Positions 15,795-36,208 of a stretch of DNA of 64,000 nt are shown here, piece after piece. Source of the stretch: Clostridium pasteurianum DSM 525 = ATCC 6013 (GTDB taxonomy: Bacteria; Bacillota; Clostridia; Clostridiales; Clostridiaceae); assembly GCF_000807255.1 (NCBI RefSeq), contig NZ_CP009268.1:1208384-1272383 (forward strand), written 5' to 3'. How positions within the stretch are numbered: the stretch's first letter is position 1; each line of letters opens with the position of its first letter. The position numbers and the translations under genes were made by a program. Below the pieces are notes generated by a model. That model was not told the DNA's origin and did no database searches. It was given only the letters and a program-made list of their open reading frames with translations.

Positions 15795-16277
15795 TTATTT
15801 AATATTGTACATTCCCTTGCTTTGCATATATTTAAATACAGCTTCTCCATGTTTTTGTTCTTCTTTTTGTATGTGATTTAATGCATCACGTACTTCTGTA
15901 TCTTTGCATTCAAAAATTGCAGTATCATAACTTCCTGATACGTATTTTTCTGTCATAAGTATATCGGAGCACATATCAGCATCATTTAAATCAGTAGCTG
16001 TTGTTGGAGTATTTGAAGTTGGTGTGCTTTGTGCAGAGTTTTGTTGCGCAGTATTTTGATTCTGCTGCTGATTCATTTGAGGTACAGTACCGCTTAATAG
16101 CTGATTAATACTATCCAAATGTGTCTGTTCTTGCTGCTTATTGGCGTTAAATATCTCCTTTAATTGTGGATCAGTAGCTTTATTGGCATAGTTGGTATAT
16201 TTTTCTATGCATATTTGTTCATGAGATTTTTGATCTTCTAATAAAGTTCTTTCTTTTTGTGATAAAGTTATTTGCAT
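15795..16277 (-). CDS. Spore coat CotF-like ferritin-fold protein
   Basis: 160 aa. Two helical blocks resembling CotF/ferritin-like coat proteins (KERTLLEDQKSHEQICIEKY..., then DLNDADMCSDILMTEKYVSG...EEQKHGEAVFKYMQSKGMY). They are separated by a Gln/Asn/Thr-rich linker at about residues 68-95. Clostridial homologs are spore-associated. AGGGTG precedes the start. Runs opposite to mreB; 16278-16576 is AT-rich with no gene. Confidence 0.8.
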   Translation of the reverse strand: MQITLSQKERTLLEDQKSHEQICIEKYTNYANKATDPQLKEIFNANKQQEQTHLDSINQLLSGTVPQMNQQQNQNTAQQNSAQSTPTSNTPTTATDLNDADMCSDILMTEKYVSGSYDTAIFECKDTEVRDALNHIQKEEQKHGEAVFKYMQSKGMYNIK

Positions 16278-16576: not shown

Positions 16577-16969
16577 ATGGTTAATGTTAAAAATATAGTT
16601 ATTTCTATTATTGGTTTATGTGTGGTTGCAGTTTTAGTTTTTGGAGTAAAGTATCTAATATATATACAGAATTATAAAAATATAATAAAGCAAATAAATA
16701 TAAGAAAAATTGATTTATCTAAAGTAGCAAATGGTACTTATTCAGGTTCTTTTGATGCCCTAGAAGTTGGGGCAGAAGTAAAGGTAACAGTAGATGATCA
16801 TAAAATTACAGATATAAAAATAGTTAATCATAAAAATGTAAGAGGAGAAAAAGCAGAAGTAATTCCTGAGAGAGTAATTGCGGCTCAATCTTTACAAGTA
16901 GATACAGTTTCAGGCGCAACAAATAGCAGTAAGGTGATATTAAAGGCTATTGATAATGCCTTGCAATAA
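16577..16969 (+). CDS. Membrane-anchored single FMN-binding domain protein
   Basis: 130 aa: an N-terminal membrane helix (residues 7-30) and one FMN_bind domain of the NqrC/RnfG type. The covalent attachment motif is DTVSGATNSS, with Thr115 the predicted FMN acceptor for ApbE. The domain would face outside the cytoplasm. Start ATG follows GGGGTGGG. It opens a run with a cytochrome-like protein, ApbE and the eight-repeat flavoprotein, consistent with a small flavin relay between the membrane and the large protein. Confidence 0.88.
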   Translation: MVNVKNIVISIIGLCVVAVLVFGVKYLIYIQNYKNIIKQINIRKIDLSKVANGTYSGSFDALEVGAEVKVTVDDHKITDIKIVNHKNVRGEKAEVIPERVIAAQSLQVDTVSGATNSSKVILKAIDNALQ

Positions 16970-17147
16970 AAAACTGAGGAATTATGTAAGCATCGAAGCT
17001 AATAAATAAAGGAATCCTGCCTTATGGCAATAAATTTGTATGTAAAAGAGAAGTATTCAGATAGCTCATCCAAAACTTAGATTGCAAGTACAAATTTTTC
17101 TGAGTTTAGATGAGTTAACTACTAAAAATAAATAGAGGTGTTTTTGA

Positions 17148-17543
17148 GTGGAAATGTATACTGACAAGCTAGGATGGATTGCAGCCATTCTATTTTTTGT
17201 TTGCTTTTGTTATTTTATATTGAAAAGATTTGTTATTAGTGGTTTTAAAATTAAGATTAAATTAAGACAAGTTCTTAATTTACACTGCTATTTAGGTATT
17301 ATTGGAACTATAATAGCTATTTTTCATGTAGGAAAAAATATAGTTTTTATTCAATTATCTGCAGGTTTTATATGTTTTTTCTCAATGATTTTACTCTGTA
17401 TATCAGGTATAGCTATAAAATGGTTTAAAAAAATTTCACCAGCAAGTAGAAAAGCATGGAGATTCATTCATATAGGATTGACTGCAGTTTTTGTGACTGC
17501 TTTATTATGGCATATAGTACTCTATCATTTTATTATGGGATAA
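17148..17543 (+). CDS. Four-helix membrane protein, probable di-heme b-type cytochrome
   Basis: 131 aa with four hydrophobic helices (about 9-29, 45-62, 65-90, 104-129). Helix 2 has His46 and His60 (LHCYLG...AIFH); helix 4 has His108 and His122 (FIHIG...LLWH). Both pairs are spaced H-x13-H, the arrangement that binds two stacked hemes in ferric reductases and NADPH oxidases. No flavin or NAD domain, so electrons would pass to neighbours. GTG 17148 is seven bases after GAGGTG. Lies between the FMN-binding protein and ApbE. Heme content is inferred. Confidence 0.7.
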   Translation: MEMYTDKLGWIAAILFFVCFCYFILKRFVISGFKIKIKLRQVLNLHCYLGIIGTIIAIFHVGKNIVFIQLSAGFICFFSMILLCISGIAIKWFKKISPASRKAWRFIHIGLTAVFVTALLWHIVLYHFIMG

Positions 17544-17820
17544 GCTTATATGTGGAAATTGTACTTATAATCAAGTTATTTGGTTTTGATTTGTGGGATA
17601 GGATGAAACAAAAATCAAAGTTCAGAGTTCAAAGAACAAATATCAGTTAATAATTGAATAGATTATTTAAATAATGTATGATAAAATGCAATTGAATGTT
17701 AATTTCAAATGAATGTGTTTATCGGTGTTTAGAAAAGAAAACTTTACATAGATATCTATGATGGTAGAAGTAAATAATAATTTTATATTTTAAATATAAC
17801 TAAACTAAAGGGAGAATTAT

Positions 17821-18780
17821 ATGAGTGAATTTTACGAATTAGAAACCTTTTGCATGGGGACTGTTATAAGTCAAAGGATTTATGGAGAGAAATCAGAAAT
17901 AGCTGCAATAAAAGTGGAGGAGGAAATGAAGAGACTAGAGTCTCTTATGAGCTTTTTTCTTGAATCCAGTGAAATAAGCAGATTAAACAGAGCAGCAGGG
18001 AAGCAGGCAGTAGAACTTGGCTGTGAATCACTATATGTACTTAACAGAGCTAAATATTTCTCAGAAATATGCAAAGGAACTTTTGATATTACTATAGGAC
18101 CTGTAGCTAAGCTGTGGGGTATATTTACGGATCATGCTAAAGTACCATCAGAGGAAGAAATTAATGAGGCATTAAGTCTCACTGGATACACAGATATTAC
18201 AATTGATAATGGGCTTGGTACGGTAAAGCTTGAAAAGGCTGGAGAAAGTGTAGATTTAGGTGCTATAGCAAAAGGATATACAGCAGATAGAGCTATAGAA
18301 ATATACAAGCAGCAGGGAATAGAGTCTGCTTTTATTAATCTTGGAGGAAATGTAATGGTATTAGGAAACAAGCCAGATGGTTCCCCTTGGAAGATAGGTA
18401 TACAAAATCCGTTACATGAAAGAGGGCAGTGTTTAGGAGTTGTAAACGCTGTAGATAAGACAATTGTAACTTCAGGAGATTACGTGAGATACTTTGAGAA
18501 AGACAATATAAAGTATCATCATATTTTAGATCCTAGAACAGGTTATCCTGCAGATTCTGGATTAATGAGTACTACAATTGTATCAGAAAAATCCATTGGG
18601 GCAGATGCATTGTCCACTGCTATTTTTATATTAGGTCTTCAGGAGGGAATGGAATTAATCAATAGCATTAAAGACATGGAAGCCATATTTGTTACAAAAG
18701 ACAAAAAAATCTATGTGACAGAAGGATTACAGAAAGACTTTATTTTATTTGAAGGAACAGAATTTTTAATTTCCTACTAA
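17821..18780 (+). CDS. apbE: FAD:protein FMN transferase ApbE
   Basis: Transfers FMN from FAD to the Thr of (S/T)GAT motifs by a phosphoester bond; Mg-dependent. 319 aa, with conserved FDITIGPVAKLWG, GAIAKGYTADRA, NLGGNVMVLG, DPRTGYPADSG and GADALSTA. The protein begins MSEFYELETF and lacks the lipoprotein or Tat signal typical of exported ApbE, so its site of action is not obvious. GGGAG precedes the ATG. Neighbours supply ten or more candidate substrate domains, so it is the likely flavinylating enzyme for this locus. Confidence 0.93.
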   Translation: MSEFYELETFCMGTVISQRIYGEKSEIAAIKVEEEMKRLESLMSFFLESSEISRLNRAAGKQAVELGCESLYVLNRAKYFSEICKGTFDITIGPVAKLWGIFTDHAKVPSEEEINEALSLTGYTDITIDNGLGTVKLEKAGESVDLGAIAKGYTADRAIEIYKQQGIESAFINLGGNVMVLGNKPDGSPWKIGIQNPLHERGQCLGVVNAVDKTIVTSGDYVRYFEKDNIKYHHILDPRTGYPADSGLMSTTIVSEKSIGADALSTAIFILGLQEGMELINSIKDMEAIFVTKDKKIYVTEGLQKDFILFEGTEFLISY

Positions 18781-18808
18781 AAATTATTATTAGCTTATTA
18801 GAAAAATT

Positions 18809-18856
18809 AGCGGCTGAATGCCTATTAAATACTAATAGATATTCAGCTGCTTTTTA
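18809..18856 (+). terminator. Intrinsic terminator after apbE
   Basis: Stem GCGGCTGAAT...ATTCAGCTGC with internal CTATTA/TAATAG pairing, then TTTTT. Separates apbE from the Fur-linked gene, which has its own promoter. Confidence 0.85.
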
Positions 18857-19002
18857 TGACAAAAATAGTACATATTATTTAGCACATGAATTTAAACAAC
18901 AATAAAATATCACCACATCTTATAAGTATAATGGGTTTTATAATATAATTATAATTTTAAATAAAAAAATGTATTAAAAACCAAATTATTTTAATGAATA
19001 TA

Positions 19003-19031
19003 TTGACATATTAATAGTTTTCACATATTAT
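19003..19031 (+). promoter_or_regulatory. Sigma-A-type promoter of the eight-repeat flavoprotein
   Basis: TTGACA at 19003-19008, a 17-bp spacer, and TATTAT at 19026-19031. The predicted start falls just before the Fur box. Confidence 0.7.
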
Positions 19032-19042
19032 TTATAAATAGT

Positions 19043-19061
19043 GATAATGATATTCATTATC
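19043..19061 (+). promoter_or_regulatory. Fur box
   Basis: GATAATGATATTCATTATC differs at one position from the classical Fur consensus GATAATGATAATCATTATC. It lies about 12 bp downstream of the -10 element, where Fur-Fe(II) binding would block initiation. This predicts induction of the flavoprotein under iron limitation. Confidence 0.85.
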
Positions 19062-19122
19062 ATAAGGAAGGGGGCTGTTTTGTATATTTATAATTGTTCT
19101 ATGTTATAAGGGGGAGTAGATC

Positions 19123-22100
19123 TTGAATAAAAAATTATCAGTATTAAAGAAAAAAATCTCTATATTGAAAATAGCTAGATTTATAATTCAACTTGTATTT
19201 TTATACTTTTTCTCAGGATTATTTACTCTAGCTTTTACCGGTTTTAAAAGTATATATTTAGGACTAGCTAGAGAAAATTTCAGTATTGCAAATTCTTTTA
19301 CTTTTTTAGCGGCCTTTACAGGGGTAGTAGTTCTATCTATATTAATAGGGAGATTTTTTTGTGGGTGGTTGTGTGCTTTTGGAACTTTTAATGATCTTTT
19401 ATACTTAACTTCATCAAAGATATTTAAGAAAAAAGTAAAAATACCACCTTCTGTAGATGAAAAATTAAAATACATAAAGTACATAATTTTATTGGAAATT
19501 ATAATTTTTATATGGTCCATGAACCGAGTACCGGAAAAGAGTATAAATCCATGGGATGCTTTTGCACAATTATTTCAAATTAAAACTATGGCATCTGAAA
19601 TGCCTATAGCTTTTATATTTTTGGCTTTAATTACTGTTGGAGCAATATTTATTGAGAGATTTTTCTGCAGATATTTATGTCCTTTAGGAGCTATACAAGC
19701 TATCCTTTCTAAGTTTAAAATTATTAATATAAGTAAGCCCAGTGAAAAATGTGGTAAATGTCAATTGTGTACAAGCAACTGTCCAATGGGCATAAATTTA
19801 TCGCAGGTAGAGGCTGTAGAGAGCGGAGAATGTATATCATGTTTAAAATGTGTAGATGCATGTTATAGGAGTAATCCTAAGGTTGTTATGTTTAAAAAGT
19901 TAAATATGCAATGGTATTCTTCTACAGCAGCAGCTATTTTAGTTTTTGGATTTATATTTTGGGGAAGTAAATTTGTAAAGCCAGAAGCCAAGATAGGATC
20001 AGTTAGTGCAGCTGAGATGTCAAAAGTTGACGAGGCTGTCTTTAGTGATGGTGTATATACTGGAGTGGGAAATGGTTACAGACCTAACCTGAAAGTACAG
20101 GTTAAAATAGCAAAAGGCAAAATTTCTGACATAAAAATAATATGCCATGAAGAAACTAAGGGATATTATGAACAAGCTTTTGACATAGTTCCAAAGGAAA
20201 TAATAGCGTCACAATCTACAAATGTAGATGTAGTATCAGGAGCGACAAGATCCAGTAATGGTATAAAGCAGGCAGTTAACGACGCTCTTAATAAAGCGAG
20301 AAAAGATAAGACTAAAAATCAAGTTGTAGATAGTCAGAAAAGTGATAGTGCTTCCACAGAAGCTGAAAACATCAGTGCAGATGTATCTATGGACAAGAAT
20401 GCAAAATTTAAAGATGGTACATATACAGGAGTAGCAAAGGGTTATGCTTCGGGACTTACAGTATCTGTAACTATAAAAGACGGAAAAATTTCCGACATAA
20501 AAATAATATCTCATAATGAAACACCAGGTTTCTATGAAAAAGCTTTTAGTACAGTACCAAAAGAAATAATAGCAGCACAATCTACAGATGTAGATGTGGT
20601 ATCAGGAGCAACTTTCTCCAGCAGAGGTATAATGGCAGCGGTTAAGAATGCACTTGAAAAGGCACTAATCAGTGGTGAATTACCAGAGGATAATACCTCT
20701 ACAACAGAAGATACAAATACAACTTTAAATAGCAATGTTGATGTTTCAAGTATAGTATCTAAATTGCCTGTATACACTGGTAAAGGACTATACAAAGATG
20801 GAGTTTATACAGGAACTGGCAAGGGCTTTATGCCTAATCTTAAGGTATCTGTTACAGTAAAAGATAGAAAAATATCAGATATAAAAATAATTTCCCACAA
20901 TGAAACACCAGGATTTTATGAAAAAGCATTTTCTATAGTACCAAAGGAAATAATAAGCAAACAGGCTACTGATGTAGATACAGTATCAGGAGCGACAAGA
21001 TCAAGTGAAGGTATAATAGCGGCTGTTAATGATGCATTAAAGAATGCAAGATTAGATGACAGTACGCCAAAGCCAGTTATACCAAATTCGGTTACTCCAA
21101 CACCATCTAATCCTACTCCACAACAACCTGCTGCACCAACAACACCAGCGGGAACTAAATATAAGGATGGAGTTTATACAGGAACAGCAGACGGATTCCA
21201 GCCAGGACTTACAGTATCAGTAACGATAAAAGATAATAAGATTTCAGATATAAAAATAACAGCGCACAATGAGTCCGAGGGCTTCTATGAAAAACCATTT
21301 GATTCAGTGCCAAAGGCAATAATATCAAAACAGTCTACAGATGTGGATGTAGTATCAGGAGCAACTTATACAAGTAAAGGTATAATGAATGCAGTAGCAA
21401 ATGCATTGAAGGATACAAAACTTGATGGTACAGGTGGAAGTACAACCCCAACTAATTCATCAGACAATAATAACGATACTGAGAAACCTGGAAATGAAAA
21501 GCCTATTACTACAGCAGCACCTTTATATAAGGATGGAAGATATACAGGAGTAGGAAAAGGACTTAAAAAGGATCTTACTGTGGATGTAACAGTAAAAGAT
21601 AATAAAATTACAGATATAAACCTTATAACTTATAAAGATGGCATAGAATACATGAAAAAAGCTATGACACCAATGACTGAAAGAATAATAGCAGCTCAAT
21701 CTACAGATGTAGATGTAGTATCTGGTGCAGTTGAGACAAGTAATGGAATAAAAGATGCAGTAAACAAAGCTCTTGAAAAGGCAGTTTATAAGGATGGAAC
21801 TTTTACTGGAGTTGGAAGAGGCTATAACAGAACAGATCGCATAAATCTTAAGGTAACAGTAAAAGACGGAAAAATGAGTAATATTGATATAATATCTCAG
21901 GCTGAAACACCAGAATATTTTGAAAAGGTATGGCCAACTATACCTAGTAAAATAATTGAAACTCAATCAGTTGCAGTAGATGCAGTATCAGGAGCCACAA
22001 GATCCAGTAATGGAATAATGAATGCCGTTAAGGCAGCCCTTGCAACAGATACAACTGTAGGAGAAACAAGTACTTATCCAAGTAAAGAAGATGTAGCAGC

Positions 22101-22677
22101 ACCATTTAGAGATGGAGTATATACAGGAAAGGGAAAAGGATATGCTGGAGATATTACTGTTAATATAACAGTGAAAGACAATAAGATATTAAAGATTGAG
22201 CTAGGAAATAATTCTGAAACACCATCTTATTTTGAAAAAGTATGGTCTATTATACCAAATGAAATGATAGAAAAACAATCAGCGGATGTAGATGCAGTAT
22301 CTGGAGCAACAAGGTCCACAAATGGAATAATCAATGCAGTTAAAGATGCCTTGAGGAATTCAAAACTTGCACTTTCAGCCCCAGCAGAGGCACCCTATAA
22401 AGATGGAAGCTATGAAGGTGAAGCAGAAGGTTTTAGAGGACCTATGAAAGTAAAGGTTGAAGTAAAGGACAATAAAATATTAAAAGTAGATATGATTTCA
22501 AATATGGATGATAAAGATTGGTTTAACAAAGCATGGACAACTATACCAGAAAAAATTGTTGAAACAAACAATGTCAATGTAGATGTAGTATCAGGAGCTA
22601 CTTATTCAAGCAAGGGAATAATTGGGGCAGTAAATGATGCACTTAGAGATGCTCATGATGCAACCTTAAATTATTAG
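19123..22677 (+). CDS. NapH-like polyferredoxin fused to eight FMN-binding repeats
   Basis: 1184 aa. Residues 1-290 form a membrane ferredoxin: about five helices, CGWLC (80-84) and CRYLC (182-186), then two [4Fe-4S] sites at Cys210/213/216/220 and Cys237/240/243/247, and a helix at 267-283. From ~305 there are eight FMN_bind repeats, each starting YKDG-YTG-like and ending with (S)GAT. Predicted FMN-bearing threonines are T375, T497, T625, T748, T959, T1063 and T1160. Repeat 5 has SGAV at 867-870 and lacks the acceptor. Thr/Pro/Ser linkers separate repeats 1-5. TTG 19123 lies six bases after GGGGAG. Predicted to carry electrons from quinol or a cytosolic donor to the outside; Fur-controlled. 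Confidence 0.9.
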   Translation: MNKKLSVLKKKISILKIARFIIQLVFLYFFSGLFTLAFTGFKSIYLGLARENFSIANSFTFLAAFTGVVVLSILIGRFFCGWLCAFGTFNDLLYLTSSKIFKKKVKIPPSVDEKLKYIKYIILLEIIIFIWSMNRVPEKSINPWDAFAQLFQIKTMASEMPIAFIFLALITVGAIFIERFFCRYLCPLGAIQAILSKFKIINISKPSEKCGKCQLCTSNCPMGINLSQVEAVESGECISCLKCVDACYRSNPKVVMFKKLNMQWYSSTAAAILVFGFIFWGSKFVKPEAKIGSVSAAEMSKVDEAVFSDGVYTGVGNGYRPNLKVQVKIAKGKISDIKIICHEETKGYYEQAFDIVPKEIIASQSTNVDVVSGATRSSNGIKQAVNDALNKARKDKTKNQVVDSQKSDSASTEAENISADVSMDKNAKFKDGTYTGVAKGYASGLTVSVTIKDGKISDIKIISHNETPGFYEKAFSTVPKEIIAAQSTDVDVVSGATFSSRGIMAAVKNALEKALISGELPEDNTSTTEDTNTTLNSNVDVSSIVSKLPVYTGKGLYKDGVYTGTGKGFMPNLKVSVTVKDRKISDIKIISHNETPGFYEKAFSIVPKEIISKQATDVDTVSGATRSSEGIIAAVNDALKNARLDDSTPKPVIPNSVTPTPSNPTPQQPAAPTTPAGTKYKDGVYTGTADGFQPGLTVSVTIKDNKISDIKITAHNESEGFYEKPFDSVPKAIISKQSTDVDVVSGATYTSKGIMNAVANALKDTKLDGTGGSTTPTNSSDNNNDTEKPGNEKPITTAAPLYKDGRYTGVGKGLKKDLTVDVTVKDNKITDINLITYKDGIEYMKKAMTPMTERIIAAQSTDVDVVSGAVETSNGIKDAVNKALEKAVYKDGTFTGVGRGYNRTDRINLKVTVKDGKMSNIDIISQAETPEYFEKVWPTIPSKIIETQSVAVDAVSGATRSSNGIMNAVKAALATDTTVGETSTYPSKEDVAAPFRDGVYTGKGKGYAGDITVNITVKDNKILKIELGNNSETPSYFEKVWSIIPNEMIEKQSADVDAVSGATRSTNGIINAVKDALRNSKLALSAPAEAPYKDGSYEGEAEGFRGPMKVKVEVKDNKILKVDMISNMDDKDWFNKAWTTIPEKIVETNNVNVDVVSGATYSSKGIIGAVNDALRDAHDATLNY

Positions 22678-23345: not shown

Positions 23346-24164
23346 ATGATGAAAGTAGACACTGAAAAATGTATAGGTTGTGGACAATGTGTTAAAGATT
23401 GTTTTCCCATGGATATAGAGATTGTAGAAGGTAAAGCAAAAATTAACAATAAGGTCTGTATTAAGTGTGGACATTGCATTGCGGTATGTCCTAAAGATGC
23501 AGTTTCGACAGATGAATACAATATGGAAGATGTAAAAGATTATAACAAGGAAAATTTTTCTATAAATCCAGATACGCTTTTAAATTTTATAAAATTCAGA
23601 AGAACAGTAAGACAATTTAAAAATAAAGAAGTGGAGGAAGAAAAGATAATAAAAATTATAGAATCTGGAAGGTTTACCCAAACAGGCAGCAATATGCAGG
23701 ATGTATCTTATATAGTGGTAAAAGAAGAACTGGAGAAACTTAAAAATTTAACATTTGAAACCTTAAAAAATATGGGAGAATATGTGCTTAATAATAGAAC
23801 TCCAGAAACAAGAATTTACAGGAGATACGGAAAAATGTGGATAGAAATGTATGAGGAATACAAAAAGAATCCTAAAAATGATAAGATATTTTTTAATGCT
23901 CCTGTTATAATAGTTGTTACGGCTAATTCACAAGTAGATGGAGCTCTTGCATCTTCAAATATGGAACTTATGGCAGATGCACTAGGTCTTGGGACCTTTT
24001 TTAGTGGATTCTTTGTAAGGGCAGCACAGGAGAATAAAGATATTGTAGATTTCCTTGGAGTTAAGAGAAGAAAGGAAATTGTAACCTGTATGATACTAGG
24101 ATATCCTGATGTAAAATATTTAAGAACAGTACCAAGAAAAGAAGTAGATATAAGTTGGAAATAA
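23346..24164 (+). CDS. Nitroreductase with N-terminal 2[4Fe-4S] ferredoxin domain
   Basis: 272 aa. Residues 5-55 carry two cluster motifs, CIGCGQCVKDCFP and CIKCGHCIAVCPKDA. Residues ~75-270 form an FMN nitroreductase domain (FRRTVRQFKNKEV, then GLGTFFSGFF near the flavin site). The fusion lets ferredoxin electrons reach FMN directly for reduction of nitro, quinone or enoate substrates; the substrate is unknown. AAAGGAG precedes ATG. It follows the flavoprotein locus but is its own unit; a functional link is inference only. Confidence 0.9.
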   Translation: MMKVDTEKCIGCGQCVKDCFPMDIEIVEGKAKINNKVCIKCGHCIAVCPKDAVSTDEYNMEDVKDYNKENFSINPDTLLNFIKFRRTVRQFKNKEVEEEKIIKIIESGRFTQTGSNMQDVSYIVVKEELEKLKNLTFETLKNMGEYVLNNRTPETRIYRRYGKMWIEMYEEYKKNPKNDKIFFNAPVIIVVTANSQVDGALASSNMELMADALGLGTFFSGFFVRAAQENKDIVDFLGVKRRKEIVTCMILGYPDVKYLRTVPRKEVDISWK

Positions 24165-35161: not shown

Positions 35162-36208
35162 TTGAAAAGATTAAAATTTAAAAGTTATTTTTATGCTATA
35201 GTTATTTCTTTAGTAATTGTACTTTTATTACTTGGAAGTAAGTTTATAAAATCCCAGGGTAAAATAGCTCTTAGATCAAATAGTACAATTATATTTAAAG
35301 GTGAAGAAGCAAAATCAAATAGCAGCATTAATTCTCAAAAACTAAAAGCTGAGTCTATAAAAAATCTATATAAAGATGGAAGATACACAGGTACATCAGC
35401 GGGTTATAAAGATAATTTTATTCTAGATGTAACAGTTAAAGATAATAAGGTTACTGACATAAATATTATAAGTTACGAAGATGGAATAGAATATGTAAAA
35501 CAAGCTGCTATACCAATAAGTGACAAAATAATATCAGCCCAGAGTACTGATGTAGATACAGTATCTGGTGCTACTACTACAAGTAATGGAGTTAAAGCAG
35601 CAGTTAAGAATGCACTGCTAAAGGCAACTTATAAAGATGGAACTTATAATGGTAAAGGAATTGAATATACCACAAATAAATTTGTAAATGTCAATGTAAT
35701 AATTAAAAAAGGAAAAATAGATAAATTAGATTTAATATCTCAGGATGAAATACCTGAATTTGATAAAGCATGGACAAATGTTACCAATAAAATAATTAAA
35801 AGTCAATCTACAATGGTAGATGCAGTAACTGGGGCAACCTATGCAAGTAATGGAATAATTAATGCAGTGTACAATGGTATATCAAAGGCAGAAACCTTGG
35901 GGGCTGTGAGTACATATCCATCAAAAGATCAGATTATACCTCCTTTTAAGGACGGAAAATATGTGGGGAAAGATAAGGAAGGGAATCCCGTAGTTGAAGT
36001 AACTGTAAAGAATAATAAAATAGAAAAGCTTGATTTAAAAATTAATGATGAAAATTCAGAATATCTAAAAAAGGCAGGTAACAGTATAGCAGATGAAATT
36101 GTAAAAAAACAATTGGCAGAAGTAGATGCAGTATCAGGAGCAACCAAGTCCAGTAATGAATTGATAATTGCAGTTAAGGATGCATTGAGGAATGCAAAGG
36201 ATTGGTAG
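35162..36208 (+). CDS. Membrane-anchored protein with three FMN-binding repeats
   Basis: 348 aa: one N-terminal helix (residues 9-26), a ~40-residue linker, then three FMN_bind repeats with acceptor motifs SGAT (T138), TGAT (T226) and SGAT (T328). The repeats match repeats 5, 6 and 7 of the 1184-aa protein in order, including the linker STYPSK, so it arose by duplication of that segment or the reverse. Here the repeat-5 equivalent keeps its Thr. TTG 35162 follows AAAGGAGTG. Located 12 kb from apbE without redox neighbours; it still depends on ApbE for covalent flavin. No Fur box was seen upstream. Confidence 0.88.
   Translation: MKRLKFKSYFYAIVISLVIVLLLLGSKFIKSQGKIALRSNSTIIFKGEEAKSNSSINSQKLKAESIKNLYKDGRYTGTSAGYKDNFILDVTVKDNKVTDINIISYEDGIEYVKQAAIPISDKIISAQSTDVDTVSGATTTSNGVKAAVKNALLKATYKDGTYNGKGIEYTTNKFVNVNVIIKKGKIDKLDLISQDEIPEFDKAWTNVTNKIIKSQSTMVDAVTGATYASNGIINAVYNGISKAETLGAVSTYPSKDQIIPPFKDGKYVGKDKEGNPVVEVTVKNNKIEKLDLKINDENSEYLKKAGNSIADEIVKKQLAEVDAVSGATKSSNELIIAVKDALRNAKDW

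Follow-up and report, generated by a model that had tools for sequence, protein, structure and literature searches.

We analysed a 64,000-nucleotide stretch of the Clostridium pasteurianum DSM 525 genome (the window, to whose positions all coordinates below refer) that encodes a 1184-residue fusion of a NapH-like membrane ferredoxin with eight FMN_bind domains, here called the octa protein (19123..22677, + strand). The best explanation for the whole, to which we give a probability of a little under 0.6, is that the octa protein is a transmembrane electron arm that would be made under iron scarcity and would reduce Fe(III) for uptake. The original prediction for this DNA had placed the octa gene last in a series encoding a small FMN_bind protein, a four-helix DUF4405 protein and the flavin transferase ApbE, and Pfam matches confirmed all four genes, their order and their positions.

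Flavin capacity and putative iron control of the octa protein

The octa gene starts with TTG, and its product carries Fer4_5 and eight FMN_bind matches (450 bits summed). The NapH-like membrane/ferredoxin module (19123..19977, +; residues 1-285) has four clear helices and a weaker fifth, eight cysteines in two 4Fe-4S-type sets and two CX3C motifs, for which the term polyferredoxin first applied to it was an overstatement. The repeats, of 86-88 residues each and 42-73% pairwise identity, follow on the same strand at 20044..20301 (SGATRS), 20410..20667 (SGATFS), 20794..21051 (SGATRS), 21163..21420 (SGATYT), 21529..21786 (SGAVET), 21790..22053 (SGATRS), 22108..22365 (SGATRS) and 22399..22656 (SGATYS). 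Thus, seven repeats end in SGAT, and in repeat 5 the acceptor threonine is replaced by valine. Since the flavin is attached to the threonine of this motif in related proteins, as described in PMC10339131 and PMC5928378, the octa protein should hold at most seven covalent flavins, or eight together with the small FMN_bind protein. The earlier label of an eight-FMN (flavin mononucleotide) protein is lowered accordingly; of the up to nine flavins proposed for the whole chain, the eight on seven octa repeats and the small protein have the needed threonine, and the ninth is not supported. Repeat 5 of three octa orthologs ends in SGAT, which points to a change in the window lineage and rules out SGAV as a family trait. 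With eight FMN_bind domains and seven flavinylation motifs, the octa protein has the hallmark of a multi-flavinylated protein (more than one such domain with the motif), and domains and motifs together support the prediction that a NapH-type membrane module carries an array of several flavins.

We searched 206 genomes of the family for the NapH domain and found relatives in 67 of them at E <= 1e-60. Among the matches listed, four proteins form the octa group, namely the window protein and those of C. polyendosporum, G102 and G089, whose NapH domains are 79%, 69% and 67% identical to that of the window. Their open frames span 1185 to 1273 residues, and our own FMN profile detects eight FMN_bind domains in every one of them; the remaining NapH matches listed show at most 51% identity and open frames of at most 817. 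The octa form was found in one of five genomes of the window's genus, one of the five being 79% complete. A plasmid location of the octa gene was dropped as an explanation, as megablast gave no match in 72,556 plasmid records. The same genome encodes three further NapH fusions (L014, L015 and L016; 538, 391 and 420 residues) with two, one and one C-terminal FMN_bind domains, all distant from its only ApbE gene.

Upstream of the octa gene, a promoter-like TTGACA-17-TATTAT element (19003..19031, +; 11 of 12 positions) is followed by a Fur box (19042..19062) made of two overlapping matches on opposite strands. Scored against what we take to be the E. coli Fur consensus, this box has one mismatch. 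The best sites of the four octa genes have 1, 3, 3 and 3 mismatches by that consensus, and a site as good arose in 0, 5, 0 and 0 of 2000 shuffles. Moreover, the window box matches exactly, on both strands, the C. difficile Fur consensus TGATAATVAWHWTCA reported in PMC6311696, for which 0.08 matches are expected by chance in 64 kilobases (kb). An exact box of this type lies within 400 base pairs upstream of all four octa genes and of none of 56 other distinct NapH-like open reading frames (ORFs), many of which follow apbE, so that a box farther upstream would escape this count. Throughout the genome, which has four Fur-family genes, the C. difficile consensus gave 14 strand matches at ten places, versus 2 for the backward pattern. 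Three of the places are within genes and seven at gene starts, those of the octa protein, a flavodoxin, FeoB, a Ferric_reduct protein, a chemotaxis receptor, a DUF2325 protein (divergent from a Na/H exchanger) and a pilin-like protein. The box at the Ferric_reduct gene (G000:C1:591836-591850, L270) overlaps the start of the longest possible ORF, encoding a 253-residue membrane protein that is a candidate second iron reductase.

The Fur box claimed in the original prediction is thus strongly supported by the exact match and its conservation in the octa group, and an upstream box kept in orthologs suggests that the octa gene belongs to a Fur regulon. The support does not extend to the other three genes as a single relay under Fur. 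A predicted intrinsic terminator (18809..18857, +; hairpin plus T run, -22.9 kcal/mol, z -6.2), which is absent from a separate pattern-scan listing, separates apbE from the octa gene; the latter would therefore be its own unit, served alone by the box. In addition, no box with up to four mismatches was found near the starts of the small FMN_bind, DUF4405 and apbE genes. The same box also precedes the FeoB, flavodoxin and Ferric_reduct genes, and Fe(III) is a plausible acceptor.

Orientation of the array and the proposed electron route

By the count of four clear helices, the two CX3C motifs fall on the positively charged side of the membrane, presumably the cytosolic one, as do both 4Fe-4S sets; a fifth helix would lead outside from there. 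Only one cysteine occurs among the last 894 residues, after the membrane part, and the linkers between repeats, up to 42 residues long, are rich in serine, threonine, proline and asparagine, both of which fit an extracytosolic location. In the related PceC, the FMN domain was located outside by experiment, as described in PMC5928378. Judging from NapH parity, loop charge and cysteine content, the octa array likely faces outward; this part of the original prediction is favoured by charge pattern, cysteines and linkers, and it depends on a weak fifth helix.

Starting from the domains, the motifs, the Fur box and the sole leaderless ApbE as read from the DNA, we infer the outward side, flavin attachment, the electron donor, the Fe(III) acceptor and reach across the wall, and propose the following route. 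Iron starvation would lift Fur and allow the octa protein to be made. Its NapH-like module would draw electrons either from menaquinol or on the cytosolic face, and MenD, which scored over its cut-off in this genome, suggests menaquinone as donor. Electrons would then pass to the eight FMN_bind domains, which would form a flexible string outside the cell and of which seven could bear covalent FMN. This string may reduce Fe(III) either by itself or through soluble flavins; FeoB would import the resulting Fe(II). The sole ApbE would load flavins on the octa protein, as on the genome's five other FMN_bind proteins. Together with the DUF4405 cytochrome, the small FMN_bind protein may constitute a second, separately controlled electron exit.

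Several points weigh against this reading. The fifth octa helix reaches a hydrophobicity of 1.57 across 19 residues; the segment is weak (1.12-1.83) across 38 NapH fusions beside ApbE, octa proteins included, and the 538-residue fusion of this genome has no fifth segment reaching 1.4. An AlphaFold model of the first 396 octa residues from 15 sequences was too poor to serve as evidence (mean predicted local distance difference test score 55, predicted template modelling score 0.39); it shows a helix at 264-284 and was otherwise unused. For menaquinone synthesis, MenD and MqnC alone were looked for, and MqnC fell under its cut-off. The NapH module itself consumes iron-sulfur clusters, and the long linkers may leave the flavins too distant for direct hopping. 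Of the seven boxes at gene starts, three stand before genes without a clear iron role, and when as many as three mismatches to the E. coli consensus are allowed, the genome has only 26 sites versus 16 for the backward control. The upregulation of Clostridium NosR and ApbE during iron-plaque reduction (ISME J 2026, PMC13134045) speaks for the proposed route, but in the parts of that study drawn on here the link is one of expression and distribution, with no knockout and under plentiful Fe(III). Finally, the window ApbE (17821..18780, +) begins MSEFYELETFCMGT, and neither a signal peptide nor a membrane helix was detected in it; since it is the sole ApbE found in the genome, extracytosolic flavin loading is not to be assumed.

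The same plaque study proposes that NosR-ApbE eases fermentative redox pressure on Fe(III), and the octa protein might likewise serve mainly in redox balancing, passing surplus fermentation electrons to outside flavins, Fe(III) oxides and other acceptors, with Fur secondary. We consider this unlikely. It would agree with the wide occurrence of NapH relatives in the family and with the lack of an exact Fur box directly upstream of any of the 56 shorter NapH-like ORFs; by contrast, the box at all four octa genes points to expression under iron scarcity rather than in the presence of abundant Fe(III). In this respect the octa form, with its scarcity-type box, differs from the NosR-ApbE described in PMC13134045, for which reduction of a plentiful iron plaque is proposed.

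A sole ApbE without a leader

The ApbE domain was confirmed in the window protein (319 residues, PF02424, 311 bits), so that the transferase predicted to load the FMN_bind domains is present; what had been missed is that this sole ApbE carries no leader. A second ApbE was sought in the genome and none was found. The signal peptide, lipobox or anchor of a canonical extracytosolic ApbE is lacking, and the 15-residue hydrophobic mean (maxH15) is about 0, where leadered ApbE reach 1.93 or more. A hidden upstream start is excluded, as only four codons lie between the ATG and the upstream stop. Export of ApbE by the twin-arginine (Tat) route was set aside as an answer: the genome has three TatC genes, yet no twin-arginine motif was seen by eye at the ApbE start, at the small FMN_bind start or before octa helix 5. 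The motifs DLGAIAKG and HHILDPRTG, which we presume to have catalytic roles, are kept, and from their alignment the window ApbE looks active. Both align with Listeria FmnB (PDB 7ESA), the closest solved ApbE relative, which acts outside the membrane according to PMC9973259, whereas the window ApbE has no leader.

To place this protein, we compared 152 distinct ApbE from 107 of at least 130 ApbE genomes in a sample of 146, all counts being among the matches listed, and called leaders from the 15-residue hydrophobic mean over the whole upstream open frame. Twenty-eight of the 152 were leaderless (mean <=1.27) and 124 leadered (>=1.93), with none between. An FMN_bind gene lay within 1.4 kb of 25 of the 28 leaderless versus 41 of the 124 leadered ApbE, as detected with a profile built from this genome, by which other FMN_bind types may be missed; a window-type DUF4405 gene stood beside 4 of 28 versus 0 of 124. 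In a quick tree with Shimodaira-Hasegawa-like approximate likelihood ratio test (SH-aLRT) support only and some long branches flagged, the window ApbE belongs to a 13-member branch (support 93) without a single leadered form. The leader label changes six times in total on this tree, three of the changes being forced by starred branches, and among the ApbE linked to NapH fusions leaderless and leadered forms are intermixed. In G000, G003 and G132, the only ApbE found is leaderless and NapH-FMN_bind fusions are present. Correspondingly, 11 of 22 named loci, partly from the same genomes as the census, have an ApbE gene, without a leader in 9 of the 11; leader status at L029 was read by eye, since the alignment gave no usable start. 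The only ApbE found in G003, which belongs to the same genus (L105, 5958-6914), is leaderless and 87% identical to that of the window, and no NapH, DUF4405 or small FMN_bind gene, or remnants of them, were found beside it.

Four explanations come into question: ApbE leaves the cytosol by some other route, ApbE works from inside when it loads flavins, the acceptors are turned inward, or no flavins are attached. If the acceptors had switched sides with the ApbE leader, the fifth segment should differ between the two classes; its median strength is 1.52 beside leaderless ApbE (n=16) versus 1.42 beside leadered ApbE (n=22), p 0.15, which lends no support to such a switch. We tentatively suggest, as a possibility rather than an expectation, that in a branch of the Clostridiaceae extracytosolic FMN_bind proteins, the octa array among them, receive their FMN from a leaderless ApbE in the cytosol, either ahead of export or while it proceeds, so that a flavin-bearing chain would be threaded through Sec, and that ApbE changed sides repeatedly while the acceptors stayed outside. 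No report of a leaderless ApbE with extracytosolic FMN_bind acceptors was found in the open-licence literature.

It is improbable that the array is unflavinylated or only partly flavinylated, with ApbE serving a cytosolic substrate and the repeats acting as loose flavin binders or a wall spacer. The missing leader and membrane helix of ApbE would suit this view, as would the leaderless Klebsiella ApbE, which acts on a soluble fumarate reductase according to PMC12052999. However, all 16 FMN_bind domains of the genome lie in six ORFs, each with at least one membrane helix and none soluble (0 of 6; other substrate classes were not searched), SGAT is retained in seven of eight octa repeats, and FMN_bind genes accompany most leaderless ApbE in the census. 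Rnf was rejected as a client of ApbE, none of the 16 matches being in an RnfG-like gene. About as doubtful is a cytosolic location of the FMN_bind domains on which leaderless ApbE acts, through a reversed small protein or a helix 5 that does not cross, so that the array would not be extracellular: the weak fifth helix would allow it, and residues after the helix of the small protein, in the window and in most homologs, are by eye at least as positive as those before, but the fifth segment is no weaker beside leaderless than beside leadered ApbE, substrates of leadered ApbE should be outside, a leaderless ApbE of G069 (a genome with at least three ApbE) adjoins an FMN_bind lipoprotein with an LGC box, and PceC provides a precedent for an FMN domain outside (PMC5928378).

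The sole leaderless ApbE brings with it the question of the membrane side on which flavin is attached; the standard picture has ApbE outside. The main survey of extracytosolic flavinylation excluded genes without export signals when seeking components, as its account in PMC8238504 states, so leaderless-ApbE systems may be under-counted there.

Relation to known systems and accompanying genes

Multi-flavinylated proteins with up to 13 predicted sites have been proposed as flavin counterparts of multiheme cytochromes (Meheust et al. 2021, eLife, PMC8238504), and an AlphaFold survey modelled such proteins as beads on a string (mSystems 2024, PMC11334425). The likeness to multiheme cytochromes drawn in the original prediction is thus not new and describes a published class. 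Like the members of that class, which often include a membrane electron module, the octa protein unites several FMN_bind domains in a single chain. It differs from them, as far as those accounts go, in that its eight repeats are C-terminal to NapH, its group has four members, the Fur box is conserved and the ApbE is leaderless. It also belongs with the NapH-like flavinylation systems of PMC8238504, having a PF12801 membrane ferredoxin with FMN_bind and ApbE; 1926 of the 2465 clusters published there have an N-terminal FMN_bind, whereas the array here is C-terminal, after the last helix. PceC and NosR, as described in PMC5928378, have a similar NapH-like membrane part, CX3C motifs and a covalent-FMN-type domain, but their single FMN domain lies between helices 1 and 2, in contrast to the eight after the last helix of the octa protein. 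In the PepSY-like flavinylation systems of Shewanella and Caulobacter, electron transfer is Fur-repressed according to PMC8238504, a likeness to the octa gene; their membrane module is a different one, with no NapH-type part or FMN_bind array mentioned for it in the parts of that account drawn on here. The Listeria PplA model (NF041941) matched at 87.3 bits, below its cut-off of 325.

The kind of system is therefore already known, and the octa form, with its predicted Fur control and a leaderless ApbE, is a variant of it; no report of a Fur-controlled NapH-FMN_bind protein in Clostridium was found in the open-licence literature. The octa group would tie one of the proposed counterparts of multiheme wires to iron starvation, and the putative regulon, which joins the octa gene with those of FeoB, a flavodoxin and a ferric-reductase-like protein, offers a clean genetic test.

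The small FMN_bind protein (16577..16969, +) has 130 residues, an FMN_bind match of 45.7 bits, the motif DTVSGATNS and one N-terminal membrane helix. The DUF4405-type cytochrome b candidate (17148..17543, +; 131 residues, GTG start) matched PF14358 at 34.5 bits against a cut-off of 26.7. The two H-x13-H pairs that had been noticed in this four-helix protein (H46/H60 and H108/H122) are kept in all four DUF4405 proteins beside related ApbE genes, the window included, and heme b is predicted. DUF4405 heme b cytochromes that adjoin apbE are described in PMC10979944; the window protein resembles them in its conserved membrane histidines, their number and its place beside apbE, and differs in having four helices where the published form has six. 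Homologs of the small FMN_bind protein adjoin leaderless ApbE in G001, G002, G026, G061, G081 and G095, together with DUF4405 in G001, G002 and G061; no DUF4405 was detected beside the set in G026, G081 and G095. This gene set is probably a second electron exit.

A Coat_F/ferritin-like gene (15795-16277, -) adjoins the small FMN_bind gene, and a nitroreductase with an N-terminal two-4Fe-4S ferredoxin domain (23346-24164, +) adjoins the octa gene. Farther downstream lies a membrane-anchored triple FMN_bind protein (35162..36208, +; 348 residues, N-terminal helix), whose three repeats are closest to octa repeats 5, 6 and 7 (64, 49 and 54% identity), the second being almost tied between octa repeat 6 (49%) and repeat 2 (47%). 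Its gene looks like a part-duplicate retaining the threonine that octa repeat 5 has lost.

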